Source: Oidiodendron maius Zn
Taxonomy: Eukaryota > Ascomycota > Leotiomycetes > Myxotrichaceae
Reading direction: 5' to 3'
Assembly: GCA_000827325.1 (NCBI GenBank)
Contig: KN832873.1
Coordinates: forward strand, 1,936,245 to 2,000,244
DNA: 64,000 bases
Shown here: one piece after another, positions 6,661 through 36,079 of the stretch
How positions within the stretch are numbered: position 1 is the first letter of the stretch
How the letters are laid out: the number at the start of each line of letters is the position of its first letter
The notes under the pieces: generated by a model
What the model saw: only the letters and a program-made list of their open reading frames with translations
What the model was told of the DNA's origin: nothing
Databases searched by the model: none
Program-made: the position numbers and the translations under genes

Positions 6661-9051
6661 TATAGAGGTAAAGTGCGATGAGCAGCGACCCACTTGCGGA
6701 GTGCGTTTCTCCCTTACAGTGTTCTAATTCAAGAGCGTTTAGAGGTTAACGATATAGCAGCAATGTCTCCGCTTAGATCATGTCTGGTACTTTAGAGCCA
6801 TCCCCTTATTCGAGTCACAGCTGAAAATTGTTGCAGTGATTATAATCCGCGAGTCCTATTTAAGGACGACACTTCTAGGGTAGTCGAGCGGATGCAAGAG
6901 GTCTCAACAGCAGGAAATTCTGTTTGGGATCGTAAGTTTCCTCTGCTACATACAACAGTTTTCACTAATATCTACGCAGCCAGCGTTCCCCAACGTGAAC
7001 AGTCCCAGGATCGATCCATTGAAGATATACTGCCCCCATTCTCAGCCTTGACCACGGACGAAGAGCGAGAGAGAAAGGCAGAGTTGAAGAACCCCGGAAC
7101 TTACCATGTAGTTGCAAATCTGGACAGCTTTGTTAAATTGCCAGAGTATAGGGAGGATAATGCACCAATTTCAGGCGAAGGAGATGCAGGAAACCTAACA
7201 TCACCAGCTCTAGCAGACGAGGATGATACTCCAAGCAGCTTATCCGCCGATCCCATAGCTGCTGCAGATGATCCAAACGTAGTCATCCTTAGAGTGTTTG
7301 AAGAACCTCCTCGAAAGTCGTCAGCCCAGCTTTCTATTAGATCTACGACCAACCCGGTTTCCCCGGCATCATCTCATGGCTCCTTGGCAACGACCTCGCG
7401 ACAAACCACTCAACGGAGTACACAATATACGGACAGCCAAGGCCTTTCAATGCTCGACGTAGCCCGTAGCGGAGGCCAAGATGCACAGCTATTGCAGCAT
7501 TACCGAACAGCGATATCTCCTTACATACTACGAACTCAAAGGCCTGAAGGAGATGAAGATCTGTTCGAAATACAAGCTAGAAACTATCCTCCGGTAACTA
7601 ACTCTTTCTCTAATATTTACGTCGATCTTCTAGAACCAACATCTTCTAGCTCTTTCATGCCATGATGGCCCTTGCTGCCCTTAGCATGGCCGTGCAGAAC
7701 GGTACGCAAAACGCATATGCTTTGGAACATTATCAGCAAGTAATACCAGCATTGAAGATCATTGTCCAAAGCTCGCAGGATTCATACTCAGATGGAGCAC
7801 TATTTACGCACTTCATCCTCTTGTTGTACGAGGTATGTTCGAAGACTCCATTTATTCCAGTCTCCATCCTGGACTGTGGTGCCATGGATCAGCTCTTAAA
7901 ACCCTGTCTATCGTGCATTACCTGCTACTCTTGCAGTATAAGCTCTAACATGTTGAAGATAGCAGCAGCCGGGCATAAAGAGCATAATATGTGGCAACAC
8001 CACAGGTCAGTAGTCGCCATCCATAAATTACCTTTTGAAGTGCTCTATTCTAACTCTCTACGAAAAGCGACCAACTTCTAAAAATTGTCACTCTGCGACG
8101 ACAAGCGCACGGGGTGGAAGCATATGATTTCCTAGTCTGGTTAGTCTGCCGAATCGATATATACGCTCTACTGTGTGCCAGCGGAAACGGAATATTTGTG
8201 GAAGTCTTGTTGAAGGAAAACATGCTCCCGGTGCCTGAAAGAACGCTACCCCCAATTTCTTTAGACAATGACTCGTCGTTCTATCCGGAAGAGCATCCCT
8301 TCTTTCCAATTCTCCAGAGAATCAGCCAGGAAGTGTTTTTAGTTGCCTTGCAGATGGGTCAGCTAGGTCGAGATCTTAGAGCCGAAGCCAGGACAAGGCA
8401 ATATGACATGCAGAATGTCTCGATATCTGATTCTCTCTTTATAATGAATAGACAAACTCGTATCGAGAACCTTCATCGCGCTTTAGAGCATTGTAGGGCA
8501 TCTTGGAGGATCAGGTTCCCGGAATATTGGACTTGGCTTGCAAGCTTGGAATCTCTGCCCCGCAGGGTCTTCACTTGGGTGCAAAACGTTTGTCCTCCCG
8601 CTTCGTCATACAACATATACTGATGCAACAGCAGTCATACATGCTAGTTCGTGCATGCGTGATCTACGCCCATACAAGCTTGTTTCCTGGGCAATTATCC
8701 CGCCCTGCTCCAGAATCTGATCTCCAAATTAGAACTTGCGTGACGGAAATTCTACAGGCAGCACACATGACGTTTTCTCAGCAGCAAATTGACCCCCGGT
8801 TTATCGTCTTCCCACTATTCATGGCTGGTTTTGCAGCAACCGAGCCTGGGCAGAAAGATATTGCGCTGAACATGATAAGGGCAGTCGAGCAGCACAGTTT
8901 TGGCAGTTCCACTCAGAGTGTCCGGAAGTTACTTGAGGCGATATATGAGAATCAGCGCATCGCCATCCTACAGACCGGCGACTCTGCTCTGGTAGACTGG
9001 GTGGAAGAAATGGAGCTACGAGGGCAGCCCCCGATAATTTATGGCATATAA
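6661..9051 (+). CDS. Fungal_trans_2 (Zn2Cys6-type) transcriptional regulator, DNA-binding end apparently degenerate
   Basis: The regulatory half is clear. Exons about 6837-6931, 6980-7593, 7650-7832, 7959-8005, 8068-8587 and 8632-9051 join in frame. The protein reads DYNPRVLFKDD, then VVERMQEVSTAGNSVWD, a Ser/Thr-rich linker, then FHAMMALAALSMAVQNGTQN and IAAAGHKEHNMWQHH, all typical of fungal Fungal_trans_2 regulators. Such proteins normally start with a Zn2Cys6 cluster. Here only fragments are readable: a CRTR stretch near 6607-6618 and KCDEQRPTCG at 6671-6700. The first and fifth cysteines are not in frame, stops interrupt the segment, and no start codon joins it. I see an intact activation/regulatory domain with a damaged or unusually spliced zinc cluster; the target genes cannot be told. 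The start given is where the first zinc-cluster fragment becomes readable. Confidence 0.75.
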
Positions 9052-22345: not shown

Positions 22346-25300
22346 ATGGGTAGCCAGTTACCTATCAAGTTCACGGAGTTGCTCCAGGTATGCCTCGATC
22401 TCGTCTCTGATGCCCTCTCCGATGAATAGAGCTGACTGTTTGATATAGTTGACGAGCATTGGTGTTGATGTATGTACCGTGACTTCCAGCGCTCTCTCAC
22501 CTCATCAGGCGTCAAGGTCTAGTTTACTGACTGTACATCAACTATCTAGCAAGCGTCAATTGGATTCAACTCATGTGTAAGTATTCACATATAGGCGTTG
22601 CTATCTGCAAGCCTGTGGGCTAACAACGATCTAGACACTCGAATCAGATTCCTTCATCTGCGTTCGCGAAAAGAAAGACGAGACCGCTTCACCCGAAGTC
22701 ATCATTGTCGACCTCAAAAACAATAACAATGTAACGAAGAGACCCATCAAGGCCGATAGTGCCATAATGCACTGGACCAAACAGGTCATTGCTTTGAAGG
22801 CACAATCGAGGACCCTCCAGATCTTCGATCTTGCACAGAAGGCCAAATTGAAGTCAGCCACGATGAACGAGGATGTCGTGTTCTGGAAGTGGTTTAGCGA
22901 TACAACCTTGGGCTTGGTTACAGATACAACTGTCTATCACTGGGATGTGTTTGACCCTAATCAAGCAGCCCCAGTGGAAGTCTTTAAGAGAAACCAAAAC
23001 CTGGTGGTATGTGGTTTGGTCCCTACGACAGAGGCATACTAATAGGTCAATAGGGATGCCAAATCATCAATTATCGTGTCAGCGATGACGGTAAATGGAT
23101 GGTTGTGGTTGGTATTACGCAACAACAAGGACGAGTCGTCGGTGCTATGCAGCTATATTCTCGCGACAGGGGCATCAGCCAGGCTATTGAAGGGCATGCA
23201 GCTGCGTTTGGCACATTACGGCTTGAAGGTGCTCCATCGGACACGAAGGTGTTCACTTTTGCGGTCCGCACTGCGACGGGCGCCAAGCTCCATGTTGTCG
23301 AAGTTGATCACCAGCAATCAAATCCAGTATTCCCAAAGAAGGCAGTGGATGTCTATTTCCCGGCTGAGGCGGTAAACGACTTCCCTGTTGCCATGCAGGT
23401 CTCTCAAAGATACAGCATCATTTACCTCGTTACTAAATATGGCTTCATCCATCTTTACGACTTAGAGTCCGGTACCTGCATATTCATGAACCGCATTTCA
23501 AGCGAGACCATCTTCATCACCGCACCCGATTCTGAATCTGCGGGCATAATAGGTATATTATTCATACCTACTTCAAAGAGTGTTATCATAGCTAATATTG
23601 TTGTGTGGAAAAGGGGTGAATAGGAAGGGCCAGGTGTTGTCTGTTGCCGTTGACGAGACGACTATAATCCCATACCTACTTCAAAACCCAGCAAATTCTG
23701 GCTTGGCAGTCAAGCTTGCTTCAAGGGCTGGTTTACCCGGCGCAGACAACCTTTACGCCAACCAATTCGAGCAGCTGCTGAATACAGGTGACTTTGTAGA
23801 AGCTGCTAAGATTGCGGCCAACTCGCCGCGCGGTTTCCTCCGCACTCCTCAGACCATCGAGAGATTCAAGACAGTGCCAGCTGCCCCTGGCCAGTTGTCT
23901 GTCATCCTTCAATACTTTGGCATGCTCCTAGATAAGGGAACCCTCAATAAGCACGAGACCTTGGAGCTTGTTAGACCTGTTCTTGCTCAGAACCGGAAAC
24001 ATCTCCTTGAGAAGTGGATGAAGGAGAACAAACTTGATTGCTCTGAGGAATTAGGTGACATTGTTCGGCCACATGATCTGAATCTCGCCCTAAGTATCTA
24101 TCTGCGCGCAAACGTTCCGGGCAAGGTCGTGGCAGCGTTCGCGGAAACGGGCCAATTTGACAAGATCCTGCCGTACGCGACACAAGTTGGGTATCAACCA
24201 GACTATGTTGTCTTGTTGCAAAACATTGTAAGTCGGATCCTCCCTTTCCTTACTCACCCCTTCCCTCTGGATACCTGGACACGTCGGCAGCTTGAAGGAC
24301 TCATTCAAGATTGTGCCTTTCGCGATTTGACAAAGCTGGAGAGGCACAAGGCGATGACGAAGCACATCGACAAGGCCACAGCGGCCGAATCGATGCAGTT
24401 GAGCTCCTGGCTCGAGCTACCTACCGGATCGTCCTTTTGGAGTCTTACGCTGCATTCGCTAACATACACTAACATTCATTTCTTAGGTTCGCATTAATCC
24501 CGAGAAAGGTGCTGAATTTGCGACTCAGCTTGCAAATACCGAAGGTGGCTCGTTGGTTGATATCGATCGTGTCGTTGATGTCTTCCAGTCTCAGGGCATG
24601 GTCCAACCCGCCACTGCTTTCTTACTTGATGCCCTGAAGGATAATAAACCCGACCAAGGCCACCTGCAGACTCGCCTTCTCGAAATGAATCTCCTCAACG
24701 CACCGCAGGTTGCTGATGCCATTCTTGGCAATGACATGTTCTCTCACTACGACAAGGCACGCATTGGACAACTTTGCGAGCAGGCTGGTCTTTCTCAGCG
24801 AGCTCTAGAGCACTATAGTGACCCAGACTCTATCAAGCGTGTGATCGTCAATATTGTGGCTGCCCCAAACTTTAGCCAAGACTGGCTAACCAACTACTTC
24901 GGCCGTCTGTCGCTTGACCAATCACTGGACTGCCTGGATGCTATGCTGAGAACCAACATTCGCCAGAACCTTGGTGCCGTCGTGCAAATCGCAACTAAAT
25001 ACTCCGATCTGCTTGGCCCAACCAGACTAATTGATCTTTTCGAGAAGTACAAGACTGCCGAAGGTCTCTTTTACTACCTTGGAAGCATTGTGAACCTCAG
25101 TGAAGACCAGGACGTCAACTTCAAGTATATCGAAGCTGCGACGAGGATGTCACAGTTCACTGAAGTTGAGCGTATCTGCCGAGACAGCAATCAGTAAGTG
25201 TTGGGGAGCCCATATTTTCCTTCTCTGGACTGTCTCGAGAGCAAGTTGCGATTGAGACATGTCTTTGGATAAATCTCCCGAAATGCTCCGAATAAAAACT

Positions 25301-28300
25301 ATTACTCACTCCCCCTTAGTTATAACCCAGAAAAAGTGAAAAACTTCCTCAAAGAAGCCAAGCTTACTGAGCTGTTACCACTCATCATTGTCTGCGACCG
25401 ATTTAACTTCGTTCACGACCTCATCCTCTACCTATACCAGAATAAGCAGTTCAGCTCGATTGAAGTCTACGTTCAGCGTGTGAATCCTGCCCGTACACCT
25501 GCCGTGATTGGTGGTCTGCTCGATGTTGACTGCGACGAGTCAGTGATCAAGAACCTCTTGTCTACTGTGAACCCGGCGTCAATCCCAATTGATCAACTGG
25601 TTAGCGAGGTCGAGACCAGAAACCGCCTGAAGATTCTCTTACCATTCCTTGAGGCGACTCTGGCAGCTGGAAATCAACAACAGGCTGTCTACAACGCGCT
25701 TGCCAAGATCTATATTGACTCTAATAACGCACCTGAGAAGTTCCTCAAGGAGAATGACCAGTACGATACTTTGGTAGTCGGAAAGTACTGCGAGAAGCGT
25801 GATCCTAATCTTGGTAAGTTACACTTTCCCTTTCCTTACTCGCTCCTTCCCTCCTAGACTAGCTGGACCGGACCTTCCTCTGGATACCTGAACACGTCAG
25901 CAACATGAAGGGCTACTTCTTCTCCTCGATGCTGTGGCATCAACACAACATCACAGCGGCTCTGATCAACCTCTCCGGACCGTCTGACTGCTCGAAACAG
26001 AGCTGCGAGCTCTGCCAATCTTGGGCCGTTCCAGGCCGTTCGTCTATTGTACTATTCAGAGCATTTGCTAACTCTTTCAAGCTGTTATTTGTTATAGCAA
26101 AGGCCACAATGATATCGAGATTGTTTCGATTACGAATGAGAACTCCATGTTCAAGGCTCAGGCTAGATACCTACTTGAAAGAGCTGATGAGGAGCTTTGG
26201 GCATTCGTGCTTAGCCATAATAACATGCACCGCCGCTCTGTCATTGACCAGATCATCTCTACTGCGGTTCCAGAATCTACCGAACCAGAGAAAGTCTCTG
26301 TCGCTGTTGCTGCACTGCTTAAGGCTGATTTGCCTGCAGAGTTGATCGAGCTGTTGGAGAAGATTGTCCTCGAACCATCTCCGTTCAGCGACAATGAGAG
26401 TCTCCAAAACTTGCTCATCCTCACCGCTACTAAGGCTGACAAGGGACGAGTCATGGATTACATTCATAGGCTTGATGGGTATAATGCCCCTGATGTTGCT
26501 AACATCTGTATTGATGTTGGGCTGTTCGAGGAGGCCTTTGAGGTTTACAAGAAGATTAACGACCATCCGAGCGCTGCCAATGTTCTTGTTGAGCATATTG
26601 TAAGCATCGACCGCGCCCAGGAGTATGCCGAGCGAGTGGAACTTCCAGAAGTTTGGAGCCGAGTTGCTAAGGCTCAACTGGACGGTCTCCGTGTTTCCGA
26701 CTCTATTGAATCCTATATCCGTGCTGAGGACCCTAGCAACTACAACGAAGTCATTGAGATTGCCACTCATGCTGGCAAGGATGAGGACCTTATCAAGTAT
26801 CTTCGGATGGCACGGAAGACCCTTCGCGAGCCTGCTATCGATACCGCTTTGGCCTTCGCCTATGCTCGTACTGATCAGCTTAGCGAGCTGGAAGACTTCC
26901 TCCGAGGCACGAATGTTACCGACATCGAGCAGTCTGGTGATAAGGCTTATGCTGAAGGCTATCACCAGGCCGCGAAGATATTCTACACTAGCATCTCCAA
27001 CTGGGCGAAGCTGGCAACTACATTGGTCCACCTGGAGGATTACCAAGCTGCTGTAGAGTGCGCGCGCAAGGCGAACAACATCAAGGTGTGGAAGCAGGTC
27101 AACACTGCTTGTGTTGATAAGAAGGAATTCCGACTTGCCCAAATCTGTGGCTTGAACCTGATCATTGACGCTGAGGAGTTGCAAGATCTTGTTAAACAGT
27201 ATGAGCGCAACGGTTACTTTGATGAACTTATTGCCCTTTTGGAGCAAGGTCTTGGCCTTGGTACGTTCCTTCCTTTACTTATGTTTTGCTCCTTCCCATT
27301 ACCCCTTAGCATTACCTCATGAACCCAAAATGGTGCGACACCAACAGAGAGGCGTCGATGTCCTCGATGTCCTCGACTTTCTCTCCTGCTCTCTGGTTCC
27401 TCATTCAGTTTCATCTCCACGAATCGACGCCGTCCATTATGAGCACTGTACACGAGTACATCCTGTGGCTCTGCTGGGGCCTCTTGACCCTATGCTACAA
27501 GGAGCTCAAAAACCCGGTGCATGACATGCTCTTTCCCACTGTCGAAGTCATGGAGAAACATCTCTCGAGCATCTCCTTTGCTGCCGGCCTTCTGGAAGTC
27601 TTGCAATCTGATCTGCCGCCTACCATCGACTTCTTCAAGAGCCTTCCCACCGATGTCATAGGACTTTGGGGTATATACCTCATTCTACTCGAAAAAGCCG
27701 ACCACCGCCCCAAGATTTACATTGGCTCTTCAGTGAACGTTGCAGGCATGAATACTCGATTCACTTCTTACAACAACGGCCATTCAATCCCGCAATGGGT
27801 TCAGCATGCTATCGACAATGGCTTCACCATTACGTATAAGGGCGTGCTTTGTTGGTCAACTATCCCACTTCCTTCGAACCGATTTTCAATGCGTTCACTC
27901 CTTCTCGTACTCGAGACTTTCTTCTCTCTTGCGCTCTGGGCTATGAACTCTCGAGCCAAGACTTATGGCATGCCTTCCTTGCTGTCCTGGTCTTTGGACG
28001 ACGTCCAATATGATGGTTGCTGCGGTCACGTCGCTATCTCGGAAATGGTCAGGGGCGAAGAAGATTACCTCACCGTGGACCAAATTGCTGCCAAGGAAGC
28101 AGAGATGGAGATTCGACGCAAAGAGCAAATAATCGCTGGAGGTCAAAGATATTATGCCAAAGTCAAAGCTGGGGAATTCGAAGGCTGGTACGAAAGGAAG
28201 CGAGCCACCACCAAGAAGAGCCACGCCAATGTCAAAAAGTCGAGGAAATGGTCCTGTAAACCTTGTGGCAAGGCCTTCTTCAGCCAATACGCCTTGAACG

Positions 28301-29761
28301 ACCACAAGTCTCGATCGCTTCATCTCAACAAAGTCAAAGGTTATAACTACAGTAGACCCGACAAGAAGCGCAGAGACGATGAAATCAAAGCTGCTAAAAC
28401 CTTTCACTGCAGTCTCTGCAACAGCTCTGGCGCCTCAGAATCTAAGCTGAGAAGACATAACGAGGGCCCGAGACACATCAAGAAGGCTGCTGCTGCTGCT
28501 GCTCAGGCAGCTGAGACTGGCTAAGCGCCAGTCTCATATCACTAACACAATCATTTCTTGGAGTCATGCATCATTCTCTCATTACTTCATACTCTTCGAC
28601 GCTGTCTAACTAACTACATCCTTAGAACGCAGCCACATGGGCATTTTTACCTCTCTTGGAGTTGCTTTGTCCAAATATCATCCAGACCAAGTTATGGAGC
28701 ATTTGAGACTGTTTTGGGCCCGCTCAAACATTCCTAAAATGATCCGTGCCTGTGAGGACGCCCATCTCTGGCCCGAGCTTGTCTTCCTGTACTGCCACTA
28801 CGACGAATGGGACAACGCAGCTCTTGCCATGATGGAGCGTGCTGCTGATTCGTGGGAGCACCACTCTTTCAAGGACATCGTTGTCAAGGTCGCCAATCTG
28901 GAGATCTATTACCGCGCTCTCAACTTCTACCTCCAGGAGCAGCCATCTCTCTTGACCGATCTCCTCCAAGCCTTGACTCCTAGGGTTGATGTCAACCGTG
29001 TGGTCAAGATGTTTGAGAAGTCGGACAATATCCCTCTCATCAAGCCCTTCCTGCTCAACGTTCAATCGCAGAACAAGAGAACTGTCAACGTCGCTATCAA
29101 TGATCTCCTGATCGAAGAAGAGGACTACAAGACACTACGTGACTCGGTTGAGAACTACGATAACTATGACCCCGTCGAGCTGGCCCAACGATTGGAGCGC
29201 CATGAGCTCGTCTTCTTCCGTCAGATCGCAGCCAGCATCTACCGCAAGAACAAGCGCTGGGAGAAGTCCATCGCCCTCTCTAAGCAGGACAAGCTGTTCA
29301 AGGATGCCATTGAGACTGCAGCTATCTCTGGAAAGACTGAGGTCGTTGAGGAGCTGCTCAGATATGTAGGTTAATACGATTCCCGCTGTCGTTACAATGC
29401 TAATCCCATGCAGTTCGTCGATATCGGTAGCCGGGAATGCTATGTTGGCATGCTGTATGCCTGCCATGACCTGATCCCGGTCCACGTAGTGATGGAGATC
29501 TCATGGCGCCACGGCCTCACGGACTTTACCATGCCCTTCATGATCAACTACCTGGCGCAGCAGAGCCAGACCATCGAGCTGCTAAAGAAGGACAACGAGG
29601 AGCGGAAGAATCGCGAAAAGTCGCAGGAGAAAGAGGAGAGCAACGCGCCCATCCTCGGAGGAAACCGGCTAATGATTACCGCTGGCCCGGGTGTGGGAGC
29701 GTCTCCTGCCCCTTACACAAACGGGTTCGCGCCACAGCCGACCGGTTATGGGGCATTCTGA
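22346..29761 (+). CDS. CHC1: Clathrin heavy chain
   Basis: Eleven exons (22346-22387, 22449-22469, 22550-22576, 22635-23006, 23054-23552, 23614-24227, 24487-25193, 25320-25813, 26082-27260, 28626-29365, 29414-29761) join in phase to 1,680 residues, the family's usual length. Clathrin heavy chain forms the triskelion of vesicle coats at the Golgi, endosomes and plasma membrane. The N-terminus [20 protein letters not shown] opens the seven-blade propeller ([20 protein letters not shown]); the leg is made of repeated helical CHCR blocks ([40 protein letters not shown]); the C-terminus holds the trimerisation region and a Gly/Pro tail ending PQPTGYGAF. Exons 1-3 are only 42, 21 and 27 nt. Introns 6, 8 and 9 belong to an unusual intron family described separately; intron 9 carries a nuclease gene. 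Confidence 0.97.
24228..24486 (+). repeat. Family-related clathrin intron 6 with decayed zinc-finger relic
   Basis: A 259-nt spliceosomal intron (GTAAGT donor; CTAAC branch motifs; TTCTTAG acceptor), far longer than most introns here. Its 5' part shares CCCTTTCCTTACTC and a diverged block of about 36 nt beginning CTCTGGATACCTG with clathrin intron 8. In the host frame the intron has no stop codon along its whole length, and this frame reads [20 protein letters not shown] followed by KATAAES. That lines up with the last finger of the intron-9 nuclease ([20 protein letters not shown], then [12 protein letters not shown]), keeping the H-x5-H pair but only one cysteine and missing two residues. 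I interpret it as a deletion derivative of the nuclease-bearing intron. Confidence 0.7.
25814..26081 (+). repeat. Family-related clathrin intron 8, non-coding derivative
   Basis: A 268-nt intron that starts GTAAGT and ends TTTGCTAACTCTTTCAAG. It shares with intron 6 the 14-nt CCCTTTCCTTACTC near the donor and the diverged block at 25878-25913 (CTCTGGATACCTGAACACGT against CTCTGGATACCTGGACACGT), plus a short ACAGCGGC match further in. It also holds CTGGACCGGACC, a motif resembling the CTGGACCCGGACC and CTGGACCTGGACC of the pyruvate carboxylase intron. No finger is readable. Splicing to CTGTTATTTGTTATAGC restores the clathrin frame (L-A-V-I-C-Y-S-K-G). Confidence 0.65.
27261..28625 (+). mobile_element. 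Spliceosomal intron carrying a GIY-YIG nuclease gene (clathrin intron 9)
   Basis: A 1,365-nt intron with ordinary spliceosomal ends: donor GTACGT at 27261 and a CTAACTACATCCTTAG acceptor ending at 28625. Removing it joins the clathrin residues GLGL and ERSHMGIF in phase 1. Nearly all of it is a 401-codon ORF on the same strand. The 5' leader (CTTCCTTTACTTA, then GCTCCTTCCC) resembles the 5' modules of introns 6 and 8. No group I or group II ribozyme core was recognised, so removal should be by the spliceosome. There are no obvious terminal inverted repeats. The layout is that of a homing intron, but in a nuclear protein-coding gene. Confidence 0.8.
27319..28524 (+). CDS. GIY-YIG nuclease with two C-terminal U1/JAZ-type zinc fingers (intron-encoded)
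   Basis: An uninterrupted 401-residue frame inside clathrin intron 9. The GIY-YIG signature is GIY at residues 118-120 and YIG at 134-136 ([11 protein letters not shown], then KIYIGSSVN). Candidate catalytic residues are retained: Arg147 in [11 protein letters not shown] and Glu199 in [13 protein letters not shown]. Two C2H2 fingers of the CxxC-x12-H-x5-H type follow: Cys313/Cys316/His329/His335 and Cys364/Cys367/His380/His386, then an Ala-rich tail. Nuclease plus DNA-binding fingers is the plan of a homing endonuclease; DNA cleavage and homing are inferred. The absence of stops and intact motifs suggest recent activity or selection. The ATG overlaps, as ATGA, the stop of the clathrin frame read into the intron. 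A later ATG could also be used. Confidence 0.85.
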   Translation: MNPKWCDTNREASMSSMSSTFSPALWFLIQFHLHESTPSIMSTVHEYILWLCWGLLTLCYKELKNPVHDMLFPTVEVMEKHLSSISFAAGLLEVLQSDLPPTIDFFKSLPTDVIGLWGIYLILLEKADHRPKIYIGSSVNVAGMNTRFTSYNNGHSIPQWVQHAIDNGFTITYKGVLCWSTIPLPSNRFSMRSLLLVLETFFSLALWAMNSRAKTYGMPSLLSWSLDDVQYDGCCGHVAISEMVRGEEDYLTVDQIAAKEAEMEIRRKEQIIAGGQRYYAKVKAGEFEGWYERKRATTKKSHANVKKSRKWSCKPCGKAFFSQYALNDHKSRSLHLNKVKGYNYSRPDKKRRDDEIKAAKTFHCSLCNSSGASESKLRRHNEGPRHIKKAAAAAAQAAETG

Positions 29762-30900
29762 GGGCGAGGCGGGTGAACTGGGGGAGAGGGGTCTATATCA
29801 TTTAATGACGGGTCTGCTGGGGCATCTCGGGGTCCCATGCTCATGGAGTGGCTTTCGCTTGTGGAAGGGGAGGGGATGGGGTGATGGACAGTCTCTATCT
29901 CGCCCCATCAAGGTGTAGCTGTATTGCATTTGGGTGGCTTTCGGTGTCAGGGACGCGAGGTCTCTGCACGCGTGTACACGATAGCAGCGTTCTTACCTTG
30001 AGTTACTAGAAGATTCTCATGTATTTTGAAGGAAGTGCCGTTTTACTAGCATGAAAGTGGTTTGTATTATTGCTCTGAATCAAGGCATGTGCCACACCCT
30101 AATATCATGCTTGCGAGAAAGGATGAGGCCCGCACCCCAAGAGATATCTTAATGCCCTAGTTGGGTAAATATATATGTTTTATCCATCACACGGCCGGGC
30201 ATCTCCTGACCAGCCACCACTGAATTGGGCGTCAGGAAAAAGCAACTCCCCTTTCGTCTCACACGACCCTCAGGTAAGGCGATGTCATTGACGGTGCACA
30301 TATATCGCATGCCGTGGGGGAGGGCGAGAGATAGACACGGAGCGGTTATCGAAGGAGGACGGTTTCTCCTGGGAGAGGGGATTGAGCCCAATTGCCCCGT
30401 CGCTCCGATGCAATTTTCCCCCCCTGTATCATATGAGCTTCTATTCCACCGGGCAAGCTAACTTCTGCTTCCTCGGCCGGGCGCAAGAACCGCAAGAACC
30501 GCAAGTACCGCAAGACCGGCGTCACCCCTCCGACACCGTCACTACCCCCACCACGAGTCAGATGCGAGCGAAAGCTTCCTGCCGCCTCGCCCTAAAACCC
30601 GGCGAACGAAAAGCTGTCCCTCTTCTATCTCTCTCCTCGCCCTCCTCCTCCTCCTCCTCTCTTCCAATTCCCAATTATCCCCAATCCTTCCCCATCCATC
30701 CCTTCTCTCTCTCTACATTAGCTCTCCTGTCTCATCAGCCCTTCGTCAATTGCTCCGCCGTCAGGGTGTGTCCGCACCTCTGACTCCCATTGCCGAGGGC
30801 CTCTCCCTCGCCCAGCTCTGTCCGGCTCAACAGGTGGATATCCTCTTTCCTCGCCCTCCTGCCCGACCTCGACGCTTGACCGTGCCTCTCAGCATTCACC
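29762..30900. other. Intergenic region, clathrin to pyruvate carboxylase
   Basis: About 1.1 kb: the clathrin 3' flank, then the pyruvate carboxylase promoter and 5' UTR. From about 30480 it becomes CT- and C-rich, typical of a strongly expressed fungal gene, and includes a short 9-bp minisatellite. No separate gene seen. Confidence 0.6.
30482..30517. repeat. Four-copy 9-bp minisatellite upstream of pyruvate carboxylase
   Basis: Four head-to-tail copies of CGCAAGAAC or close variants (CGCAAGTAC, CGCAAGACC), about 385 bp before the pyruvate carboxylase start codon. They sit in the likely promoter or 5' UTR. Confidence 0.8.
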
Positions 30901-33900
30901 ATGTCGGGTGATCACGGCCCCAATGGCGCCTACAGCGAGGTCTTCGAAGAAGGCACCCTCGAGTCCCGGCCCTTGCAGACCGTCCACCGCATCCGCGCCA
31001 ACTCAACCATCATGCAGCTGAAGAAGATCCTCGGTATGTCTGCTGCCCCTCAGCGCAATTGGCCCCCCCCCCTTCCCCCAAGGCGGCGCTGCTCACAGTC
31101 TGCTAACATGTGTGTTCTCTGCTCTCACAGTGGCGAATCGAGGGGAGATTCGTAGGTCCTCCCTTTCTATCTGACTCGAACGCTACGGGATCAAATACTA
31201 ACTTTGGATGTAGCCATCCGTGTACGTGCTGGATGTGCCTCACATGAGACAATGAAGCTTGCTAACATGTCGGCGATTGGGTAGATCTTCCGTACGGTGA
31301 GTAGCCAAGACTCTCTGTCCGGAAAACACAAATCATCCAGCACCGAATTACTAACTACGTGCAGGCCCACGAGCTTTCGCTACAAACGGTCGCCGTCTTC
31401 AGGTAACATTGGCGCAGGCGGTGCAAGTGGAGTAATATACTGATGATCCGGCAGTTATGAGGACCGACTGAGCATGCACAGGCAGAGTAAGCTCCCATCT
31501 CCGCTCCCATCTCCGGCATTTCACTAATCAGGCGGAACTGTAGAAGCCGACGAGGCCTACGTGATCGGTAAACGCGGCCAGTACACACCAGTTGGAGCTT
31601 ACTTAGCAGGAGACGAGATCATCAAGATTGCTCTGGAACATGGCGTTCAGATGATACATCCTGGTAGGGGCTCGAAGGGTCTCTAGATACTGCGGTCTAA
31701 TTCCATCATAGGATACGGCTTCCTCTCCGAAAATGCAACTTTTGCCAAGAATGTTGAGAAGGCCGGTCTTATCGTAGGTTGACCGCATTGCCTACATTGT
31801 GTGACATATCTGTGTAGCAAAACTAACTGGATTGTGGTAGTTCGTCGGTCCCTCGCCTGAGGTTATCGACGCCCTTGGCGACAAAGTGTCGGCCAGAGCC
31901 ATCGCTATCAAGGCTGGAGTTCCTGTTGTCCCAGGTACCGAAGGCGCTGTGGACAAGTTTGAGGACGTCAAGAAGTTCACAGACCAATACGGCTTCCCCA
32001 TTATCATCAAGGCTGCTTATGGGGGTGGTGGGCGCGGCATGCGAGTCGTGAGAGAACAATCCAGCTTGGAGGACTCCTTCAACCGGGCTACATCTGAAGC
32101 AAAGTCCGCCTTTGGCAATGGAACTGTCTTCGTGGAGAGATTCCTTGACAAGCCGAAGCATATCGAGGTCCAGCTCTTGGGAGACAACCACGGAAATATT
32201 GTCCACCTGTACGAGCGTGATTGCTCTGTCCAGCGAAGACATCAGAAGGTTGTTGAGCTGGCTCCTGCCAAGGATCTCCCTGCTGAGGTTCGCGATGCTC
32301 TCCTGATTGATGCTGTCAAACTTGCGAAGTCAGTCAACTATAGAAACGCTGGAACTGCAGAGTTCTTGGTCGACCAGAAAAACCGTTACTACTTCATCGA
32401 GATCAACCCTCGTATCCAGGTCGAGCACACCATCACAGAGGAGATCACCGGCATTGATTTGATCGCAGCTCAGATCCAGATCGCAGCTGGCGCCACGCTG
32501 CAGCAGCTTGGACTTACTCAGGACCGTATTTCCACAAGAGGTTTCGCTGTTCAGTGCCGTATCACAACAGAAGACCCTGCGAAGCAATTCCAGCCAGACA
32601 CCGGAAAGATTGAGGTTTACCGCTCGGCTGGTGGCAATGGAGTCAGATTAGACAGCGGCAGCGGCTTTGCAGGCTCAGTCGTCACTCGTTAGTTGTCCCT
32701 TCCTTCTACTGGTCATTCCTTCCTACTATTCTTTCCTCAAGTCATATTGTTATTTCCCCAAATGTATTCTTTCTTTCTTCCTTCTTCCGGTCATCTCTGG
32801 ACCTTCAGCTGGACGGTCTTCTGGACATTTCCGGAACTTTCTGTCTTCAGAAGACTATGCAATCTGACTGCGCACTACCTCACCAAGAAGCATGTCGACA
32901 GGGTTAGAGGCATTGCTCACAAAGTCTCCAAGACCCCTGAGTATGCCATTTGGGCCCAAAATAACATTGACGAAAAGAAACACTACTGCGAGCCTTGCGA
33001 TTTTACCACCAGCACGAAACAGAAGTTAAACTCCCACCTGACGTCGCAGAGGCACAAGAAACGTGCTGCTGAGGCCGCCGGGTCGAGCTTACGCTCGAAC
33101 CTGGCATAACTGGACCCGGACCATTTTTGGACCATTTTGGACCATTTTTAGACTCAAATACTTACCGCTTCATTGCTCGATTGATGATATCCTTGCTCAT
33201 AGGCTCGAACCTGGCATAACTGGACCTGGACCATTTTTGGACCATTTTTGGACTCAAATACTTACCGCTTCATCGTTCGATTGATGTTATACTTGCTAAC
33301 AGTCCTTTTGACAGCATTTTACGATTCCATGCTTGTGAAGTGCACTTGCCATGGATCTACATATGAGATAGCACGACGAAAGATGCTCAGAGCGTTGGTC
33401 GAGTTCCGAATCCGTGGTGTCAAGACCAACATTCCGTTCCTAGCTTCTCTGCTGACGCACCCAACCTTCGTTGAGGGCAATTGCTGGACCACCTTTATCG
33501 ATGATACTCCCGAGCTCTTTGACCTAGTTGGCAGCCAGAATCGTGGTCAAAAGCTATTGGCATACTTAGGAGACCTTGCAGTAAACGGTAGCAGCATCAA
33601 GGGACAGATTGGAGAGCCGAAGTTCAAGGGCGATATCATCATGCCAGAACTTTTTGACGCGTCTGGAGCGAAGATTGACACCAGCTTGCCTGCCACGAAA
33701 GGCTGGAGAAACATCCTTCTCGAGCAAGGCCCCGAAGCCTTTGCTGCTGCTGTCCGAAAGAACAAGGGTTGTCTCCTCATGGACACCACCTGGCGTGACG
33801 CTCACCAGTCGCTCCTGGCTACTCGTGTGCGAACAGTTGATCTCTTGAACATTGCCAAGGAGACCAGTCATGCTTACAGCAATTTGTACAGTCTTGAGTG

Positions 33901-36079
33901 CTGGGGTGGGGCTACTTTCGACGTTGCTATGCGTTTCCTCTACGAAGATCCTTGGGACAGACTGCGAAAGATGAGAAAGCTCGTTCCCAACATTCCATTC
34001 CAGATGCTTCTGCGTGGTGCCAACGGAGTTGCATACTCGTCCTTACCTGATAACGCCATCTTCCATTTCTGCGAGCAAGCCAAAAAGCATGGTGTTGATA
34101 TCTTCCGAGTCTTCGACGCTTTGAATGACATTGACCAGCTTGAGGTTGGCATCAAGGCTGTCCATAAGGCTGGAGGTGTTGTGGAGGGTACCGTGTGCTT
34201 TAGTGGCGATATGCTGGTATGTTCATTTGTTCATTCGATGCTCTCTTCCACTTTTGCTCGAACCCTTTCGTGCGGCCTCCAGTTTATTCGTGTTCTCTTC
34301 GCACGATCGTTCCTGCCTTTTGTACGCCATCAAGTGTAAATCGGCGCCTGCCATTTCCTACCAAGGGCCTCGATGAGGAAGGCAGCAAGTGCTACAACAG
34401 TCTTCTTGCAGTCATGGAGCTGCTCTTCACTTCTTCCGACCTTCATCTCACCTCTCCCGACCTGGGCCACTCGTTTTACGACCTTCGTCATTCTAGCTTC
34501 GTCTTCTAGCTTCATCATTCCATTTGAACAGTATGATAACCATTTACTTACTAATTTCTCAAATCAGAACCCAAAGAAGAAGTATAATTTGGAGTACTAC
34601 ATGGACTTGGTCCAGAAGCTCGTGGATCTCAACATCCACGTCCTTGGGATCAAGGATATGGCGGGTTTAAGTCTCTGGATTACTCCCAAAACAAGCTCGA
34701 TCAAAGGCTAACTACTTGAGCAGTGAAACCCAGAGCAGCGACTATCCTCATCGGAGCGATTCGCAAGAAGTATCCGGATCTTCCAATCCATGTGCACACA
34801 CACGACTCGGCTGGTACTGGTGTTGCATCAATGGTTGCCTGTGCTGTAGCCGGTGCTGATGCTGTCGATACTGCAACGGACAGCATGTCTGGCATGACTT
34901 CTCAGCCAAGCGTCGGTGCTGTCCTCGCTTCCCTGGAGGGTACCGATCTTGACCCAGGTTTGAACGTTCATCATGTCCGAGCTATCGATACCTACTGGGC
35001 TCAGCTCCGTCTACTCTACTCTCCTTTCGAGGCTTCTTTGTTAGGCCCCGATCCTGAGGTCTACGAGCATGAGATCCCCGGTGGCCAATTGACGAACATG
35101 ATGTTCCAGGCTTCTCAGCTTGGTCTTGGTGCTCAGTGGGCCGAGACCAAGAAAGCATATGAGCAAGCCAACGAACTGCTTGGTGACATCGTCAAGGTCA
35201 CACCAACATCTAAAGTCGTTGGTGACCTGGCTCAGTTCATGGTTTCCAATAAGCTCAACTTCGCAGATGTTCAGCGCAGAGCTGCGGAACTTGATTTCCC
35301 TGGCTCAGTGCTGGAGTTCTTTGAGGGATTGATGGGTCAGCCATACGGAGGATTCCCTGAGCCCCTCCGTACGAATGCCCTACGTGGTCGTCGCAAGCTG
35401 GATAAGCGACCTGGGCTGTTCCTGGAGCCTCTGGATCTTCTGCAGATTAAGAAGGATCTACACGCTAAATGGGGCAGCGTCACTGAGTGTGATGTTGCCA
35501 GTTACGCCATGTATCCCAAGGTGTTCGAGGACTACAAGAAGTTCATTCAGAAGTACGGCGATCTCAGCGTCCTTCCCACCAAGTACTTCCTCTCCAAGCC
35601 GGAGATCGGTGAGGAGTTCCACGTTGAGCTCGAAAAGGGCAAGGTTCTCATTCTCAAGCTGCTTGCCGTCGGACCGTTGTCCGATACTACTGGGCAACGC
35701 GAGGTGTTCTACGAGATGAATGGGGAGGTTCGCCAAGTAACAGTTGATGACAAGACGGCGGCTGTGGAGAATACCAGCCGACCCAAGGCTGATCCCGGAG
35801 ACAGCAGCCAGGTTGGGGCTCCTATGTCTGGTGTTGTGGTTGAGCTTCGCGTTCATGATGGTACGGAAGTCAAGAAGGGTGATCCTCTCGCAGTGTTGAG
35901 CGCTATGAAGATGGTAGGCGGCCCCTTCAACTACCCACAGAGAATGACAGCTAACAGATGAGCAGGAAATGGTGATCTCTGCACCCCACGCTGGTAAGGT
36001 ATCGAATACGCAGATCAAGGAGGGTGACTCGGTTGCTGGGTCCGACCTCATCTGCAAGATTGTCAAGCCGAGCGAGTAG
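30901..36079 (+). CDS. PYC1: Pyruvate carboxylase
   Basis: Thirteen exons encode 1,193 residues, the family length: 30901-31033, 31131-31151, 31214-31221, 31285-31296, 31365-31402, 31455-31486, 31544-31663, 31712-31773, 31841-32687, 33315-34216, 34568-34670, 34724-35913, 35966-36079. The enzyme carboxylates pyruvate to oxaloacetate using ATP, bicarbonate and biotin. The biotin carboxylase domain shows [31 protein letters not shown] and [11 protein letters not shown]. The carboxyltransferase domain shows [17 protein letters not shown] and [10 protein letters not shown]. The biotin attachment motif AMKM ends at the last intron, followed by [13 protein letters not shown]. No mitochondrial presequence is seen, matching cytosolic fungal enzymes. 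Exons 3 and 4 are 8 and 12 nt. Intron 9 carries a decayed zinc-finger insert. Intron 11 uses a weak GTCTCT donor, chosen because it gives the conserved DMAGLMKP. Confidence 0.97.
32688..33314 (+). mobile_element. Decayed relative of the nuclease-bearing intron (pyruvate carboxylase intron 9)
   Basis: A 627-nt spliceosomal intron (GTTAGT donor, TTTTGACAG acceptor; joins SVVT and PFYDSML in phase 1). Within it, about 32863-33082 encodes [13 protein letters not shown] (the H-x5-H end of one finger), a linker, then [34 protein letters not shown]: a complete CxxC-x12-H-x5-H finger and Ala-rich tail like the C-terminus of the clathrin intron nuclease. The GIY-YIG part is absent. The 5' part is pyrimidine-rich with CCCTTCCTTCTACTGG, resembling the 5' modules of the clathrin introns. 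The 3' part is a tandem duplication. I read this as an internal-deletion derivative of the same intron family. Confidence 0.75.
33093..33302 (+). repeat. Tandem duplication of ~110 bp at the 3' end of pyruvate carboxylase intron 9
   Basis: Two direct copies begin with GCTCGAACCTGGCATAACTG at 33093 and 33203. Copy 1 is 110 bp and copy 2 about 100 bp; they differ by a few substitutions and one extra GGACCATTTT unit in copy 1. Copy 1 ends TTGCTCATAG and copy 2 TTGCTAACAG, both like branch point plus 3' splice site. The true acceptor used by the gene lies 12 nt further downstream. Confidence 0.88.

Follow-up and report, generated by a model that had tools for sequence, protein, structure and literature searches.

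Spliceosomal introns that carry homing endonuclease genes have been described in mirusviruses, including 132 with a gene of the GIY-YIG class. They were named shintrons in November 2025, and the accessible text of that report notes that eukaryotic genomes apparently have no counterparts (PMC12768974). The initial annotation of the locus presented here had described GIY-YIG homing endonucleases as classically carried by group I introns or inteins, a statement that needs updating in the light of these published viral cases. Homing endonuclease genes are also found in nuclear group I introns of ribosomal DNA (PMC9548176), and from Ustilago maydis a GIY-YIG gene is described that passed from the mitochondrion to the nucleus, where it is located at a telomere and reported inactive (PMC7593156). 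The origin of new spliceosomal introns is a long-standing question in which ascomycete introners stand out: according to the accessible text of Gozashti and colleagues, these families display neither inverted repeats nor target-site duplications, and that text names no nuclease gene as their mobiliser and does not contain the word endonuclease (PMC9860276). A homing endonuclease in a spliceosomal intron of a cellular protein gene does not appear among the matches listed for the open-licence literature, a collection without bioRxiv. Besides these systems, fungal mitochondrial group I introns carry GIY-YIG genes, and Penelope-like elements combine a GIY-YIG domain with a reverse transcriptase.

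Here, we analysed a window of 64,000 nt (the whole stretch of DNA under study, to which all positions refer), which is fungal nuclear DNA by its gene content; a frame at 8497-9048, for example, matches a fungal-specific transcription factor domain (E 1.6e-9), and most introns of the clathrin gene are short and of GT-AG type. From its sequence, the longest intron of a clathrin heavy chain gene, intron C, is rather likely to be a spliceosomal homing intron. Introns A and D, and by way of A also intron B, would then be family members of reduced length located elsewhere. As far as the accessible description of mirusvirus shintrons goes (PMC12768974), they and intron C have in common GT-AG borders, the lack of group I or II features, a gene of GIY-YIG type (probable in intron C) and a conserved host gene. 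The present case differs by its fungal nuclear location in housekeeping genes, by the two-finger tail of the predicted protein and by the shortened relatives nearby. With the ascomycete introners, as portrayed in the accessible text of PMC9860276, these introns share two traits: similar introns occupy multiple sites, and neither inverted repeats nor target duplications were observed. They differ by the probable nuclease gene present here. The ribosomal DNA group I introns, in what is accessible of PMC9548176, likewise place a homing gene in a nuclear intron, but here the intron is spliceosomal and the host is a protein gene. What would be new is thus the occurrence of the spliceosomal homing intron type within cellular housekeeping genes, the type itself being known from mirusviruses. 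Mitochondrial group I introns with GIY-YIG genes would be alike in nuclease class and selfish logic, yet theirs is a self-splicing ribozyme in an organelle. Penelope-like elements also bring a GIY-YIG domain into nuclear mobile DNA; this identity was rejected for the 401-codon frame of intron C, for which Pfam lists no reverse transcriptase.

The host gene and its longest intron are placed as follows:

22346..29762, + strand: clathrin heavy chain gene, the host (11 exons and 10 introns; spliced model of 1,680 aa)
27261..28625, + strand: intron C, a GT-AG spliceosomal intron of 1,365 nt in phase 1 (GTACGT...TTAG borders, CTAAC-like sites, gapless junction)

Placement of the exon borders was initially guided by the yeast clathrin and pyruvate carboxylase sequences. 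The borders were then tested against PDB proteins, splicing being judged from DNA and protein alignment. Residues 3-1676 of the spliced clathrin product align as a single stretch to solved clathrin heavy chains. All ten modelled clathrin introns have GT-AG borders; seven of them measure 47-126 nt and the other three 259, 268 and 1,365 nt. Exon joins are gapless against solved proteins at introns A, B and C of clathrin and at intron D of the pyruvate carboxylase gene. For intron C, the initial description of a 1,365-nt, frame-restoring intron with ordinary spliceosomal borders agrees with the borders, length, phase and gapless clathrin junction of our model. CTAAC-like sites begin 20 and 16 nt before its end, and the spliced junction reads LGLERSHMG compared with LGLERAHMG in solved clathrin, within a stretch that is much alike between fungal and bovine clathrin.

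A search of Rfam at a permissive threshold found no group I or II RNA in 24100-34700, the sole match being a microRNA family (E 1.7) outside intron C. With no ribozyme core matched, the candidature of intron C as a group I or II intron was rejected. Of the traits of a spliceosomal homing intron, intron C thus displays, by sequence and protein alignment, GT-AG borders, a host gene restored upon removal and no group I/II match. At the borders of five introns, no flanking direct repeats longer than 2 nt were found, and inverted stretches at their ends gave best match scores of only 5-7, a range that carries no shuffle control. Read by eye, the exon flanks of the introns have no evident shared target, a point against the homing reading. 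The lack of group I/II RNA, taken together with the lack of flanking repeats or strong inverted ends, fits homing.

Intron C is nearly filled by an ORF, which leaves 58 nt upstream and 101 nt downstream. Its features are:

27319..28524, + strand: 401-codon ORF for a probable GIY-YIG nuclease with two zinc fingers (motifs, codon use, fingers)
27670..27726, + strand: GIY...YIG motif, residues 118-136 (motif; Pfam PF01541 below cut-off on a fragment)
27757..27759, + strand: R147, candidate catalytic arginine (place in the motif; role presumed)
27913..27915, + strand: E199, candidate metal-binding glutamate (place in the motif; role presumed)
28255..28323, + strand: zinc finger 1, residues 313-335, C2H2 with H-x5-H (Pfam and pattern)
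28408..28476, + strand: zinc finger 2, residues 364-386, C2H2 with H-x5-H (Pfam zf-met, 21.9 bits for a cut-off of 21.2)

The intactness of this frame, as first announced, stands out against chance: the longest stop-free run of the intron reaches 404 codons, compared with a maximum of 241 among 1,000 dinucleotide shuffles. Moreover, its synonymous codons track the clathrin preference with a score of 0.076, whereas random synonymous redraws average -0.148 and none of 500 reaches the observed value; on the same scale, clathrin itself scores 0.136 and a pyruvate carboxylase exon 0.19. This agreement with clathrin codons suggests past translation of the ORF in the present nucleus or in one like it. 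The remnant in intron D scores -0.016 and displays no host-like preference. As for the recent mobility put forward initially, we infer it only from the intact frame. If intron C were retained, the clathrin frame would stop at TGA 27320-27322, which overlaps the ATG of the ORF at 27319 (ATGA). Reinitiation of ORF translation at this overlap is speculation, and a fusion of the ORF with clathrin was rejected as their reading frames differ.

The GIY-YIG signature (GIY 118-120, YIG 134-136), R147 and E199 were already recognized in the initial annotation and are indeed present as motifs in the ORF; N210 follows, in the order that we take to be expected of the class. Catalytic roles of the conserved arginine, glutamate and asparagine are presumed by analogy with GIY-YIG enzymes. 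Among 200,000 protein shuffles, the strict GIY-x13-YIG motif with its arginine turns up 4 times and a relaxed form 105 times. Both zinc fingers, also correctly called at first, have the form C-x2-C-x12-H-x5-H; this type, named U1/JAZ, also suits RNA binding. Similar proteins combining GIY-YIG and fingers occur in filamentous fungal genomes.

On these grounds, the ORF product probably belongs to the GIY-YIG nuclease class. The family search of the product that had been suggested as a check gave a divided answer. With a 109-aa fragment, GIY-YIG (PF01541) is the sole family listed by Pfam, at E 0.026 and 15.3 bits, which lies below the curated cut-off of 22.6; it appears for none of ten shuffled fragments, one of which matches an unrelated family at E 0.16. 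With the whole protein, GIY-YIG is absent from Pfam matches up to E 10, where only zinc-finger and weak unrelated families are found. NCBIfam yielded no match for the ORF protein, and PHROGs yielded three families of unknown function for the whole protein (E 0.036 to 0.25) and none for the fragment. Among PDB sequences, no GIY-YIG protein was matched; the hits were zinc fingers, none better than E 0.17, plus one unrelated protein (E 1.1). AlphaFold2 run without relatives reached a pLDDT of 35 for the whole protein and 51 for the domain, and these weak models have the element order strand, strand, helix, strand, helix. When the same poor models were used as queries against the PDB, Foldseek returned no match at E 0.001 and no GIY-YIG fold. 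A profile comparison with T4 GIY-YIG proteins gave a probability of 0.9%, using the two of seven T4 loci that passed the motif filter. The central proposal of the initial annotation, i.e. a homing endonuclease gene in a nuclear spliceosomal intron, is retained as probable with good sequence support, but its class match stays below threshold (Pfam 15.3 versus 22.6 bits).

The follow-up also found what the initial annotation had missed, namely related remnants in nearby introns (A and D), listed here together with introns B and E:

24228..24486, + strand: intron A of clathrin, 259 nt, with a finger remnant at about 24330-24386 (protein similarity; gapless junction)
25814..26081, + strand: intron B of clathrin, 268 nt, with a 5' part akin to intron A (shared blocks; gapless junction)
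32688..33314, + strand: intron D of the pyruvate carboxylase gene, 627 nt, with an internally shortened relative of the ORF (gapless junction TPFYDS against solved pyruvate carboxylases)
32693..33106, + strand: open 138-codon remnant in intron D, covering the second half of finger 1 and the whole of finger 2 (protein similarity)
33090..33297, + strand: 3' part of intron D, duplicated in tandem over about 110 nt (identity 84%, with gaps)
34217..34567, + strand: intron E of the pyruvate carboxylase gene, 351 nt, pyrimidine-rich at its 5' end (borders read by eye)

Introns A, B and D were compared with the ORF protein in six frames each (18 tests) under shuffle controls. Two frames are clear cases, and the other 16 have scores reached by 12 of 300 shuffles or more. 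In intron D, the alignment to the two-finger tail encoded in intron C spans about 72 residues and scores 66 (0/300 shuffles, top shuffle 63), and in intron A the finger remnant on the sense strand scores 48 (0/300, top shuffle 43). The length of the open frame in intron D is unremarkable, being reached by 24 of 1,000 shuffles. A plain phmmer search of the window with the ORF protein reaches intron D at no better than E 0.0076 and leaves intron A unlisted; a profile built from C, D and A recovers these three by construction and no fourth above the inclusion threshold. All three complete fingers of introns C and D conform to C-x2-C-x12-H-x5-H, and H-x5-H, the sole spacing searched in the half fingers, suits those of both D and A.

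Two blocks with about 86% identity are common to introns A and B (blastn among introns, E 2e-9 and 8e-8; 0/200 shuffles); they overlap in intron A, and the first starts 14 nt from both donors. Intron B bears no trace of the nuclease in six frames, so that its tie to the family runs solely through intron A. The DNA of intron C is not clearly akin to that of A, B or E (5/200, 39/200 and 12/200 shuffles reach the score), and its similarity to D is borderline (2/200). Sequence comparison thus establishes kinship of intron C and the remnants at the level of the ORF, and kinship of whole introns only between A and B. An introner family is recognized by two or more similar introns placed at separate sites of one genome; A and B are such a pair, both within one gene. 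The initial idea of a route for intron gain is strengthened by the related remnants in A and D (B via A), but outside the ORF the DNA of intron C has no clear likeness to either A or B. For intron E and the 126-nt clathrin intron, membership of the family found no support: 10 of 200 shuffles reach their best DNA comparison, and none of three sense frames stands out. The 5' pyrimidine fraction is 0.70-0.80 in the five longest introns (A-E) versus 0.44-0.61 in the other 7 of the 12 modelled (10 of clathrin, D and E); this richness is not diagnostic of the family, intron E having the same trait with its kinship unsupported.

Two side observations concern the borders and frames of these introns. 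The duplicate copies in intron D end in CATAG and AACAG; since the modelled acceptor lies 12 nt past the second end and in frame with it, alternative acceptors are possible at the 3' end of this intron. In addition, the remnant frames share the frame of the upstream exon, continuously in intron A (24228-24486) and after a single TAG in intron D (32688-33106), and the ATG in intron C overlaps the upstream stop. Such a placement may point to a coupling of translation with intron retention, or to chance alone.

Relatives were also sought beyond the window, in collections of viral, prokaryotic or plasmid origin that say little on fungi. Protein-based scans of viral contigs with the whole protein and a 127-aa fragment detected no relative; the one confirmed match of the fragment, at E 4e-5 over 36 residues and among viral-looking long frames, was taken as chance. 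With the fragment as query, 60 stretches of genome contigs fit a pattern and none was a relative. In phages, tblastn with the 109-aa fragment detected no relative, its two matches (E 8-9) being ascribed to chance. A degenerate pattern scan returned 12 loci, and the surroundings of all 12, once read, disclosed no relative.

Intron structure, the intact host-like frame, the motifs, the fingers and the related remnants are all visible in the DNA itself. From them, we infer that the protein cuts DNA and drives homing, that intron and gene moved together, and that they spread to other sites. Intron C would be a major-type nuclear intron, and the two zinc fingers of its product would bind nucleic acid. 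Clathrin alleles lacking the intron would be cleaved by the protein in the coding sequence at the place of intron C or close to it, and the break would be mended with the intron-bearing allele as template, which copies the intron. The spliceosome would then remove it from the mRNA, leaving the host gene unharmed. The presence of related introns at four places, spread over two genes, would require that copies occasionally reach new sites. A broader proposal, which is tentative and falls short of even chances, is that of a nuclease-driven spliceosomal intron lineage in the fungal nucleus, whose intact members spread to sites in coding sequence, not only in the home allele, then lose the nuclease and stay as ordinary introns.

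The main rival to a homing intron, unlikely in our estimation, is that a free-standing mobile nuclease gene entered old spliceosomal introns as a safe harbour and that the introns themselves did not move. The little kinship of intron C to A or B outside the ORF and its ordinary splice signals speak for such an entry. The sequence around the ORF speaks against it, with only 58 nt before and 101 nt after, even if both parts together still amount to an ordinary short intron, as does the A/B shared block starting 14 nt from both 5' splice sites. An intact frame with host-like codons would also be expected of a nested gene adopted by the host to process DNA or RNA in the cell, a function with which the finger type would presumably be compatible through RNA binding. 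However, the decayed relatives in other introns better suit a selfish element, which makes adoption quite improbable.

About as little credit can be given to the notion of a misleading motif, in which the intron would carry a non-nuclease zinc-finger protein and be an introner of unknown mechanism. The sub-threshold GIY-YIG match and the unconfirmed fold leave room for it, but the motif and its spacing are rare in shuffles and the weak models do present the strand, strand, helix, strand, helix order. GIY-YIG genes are common in fungal mitochondria. A recent transfer of such a gene to the nucleus, comparable to the Ustilago maydis case as accessible in PMC7593156, is nonetheless the least probable of these explanations and very improbable in itself. 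Against it stand codons that follow the nuclear clathrin gene, a zinc-finger tail, no group I RNA at 24100-34700 and kindred remnants in other nuclear introns.

To conclude, the reading of intron C as a spliceosomal homing intron joins an intron with its own probable nuclease to shortened neighbours, and so offers a testable DNA-based route to intron gain, all the more interesting as the nearby introns resemble later stages of the same element. If true, spliceosomal homing introns would extend from giant viruses to cellular housekeeping genes. Besides, the family of intron C is a candidate source of the ascomycete introners that lack transposon signatures, for which a nuclease-driven lineage, if it exists, would supply the mobilising mechanism.
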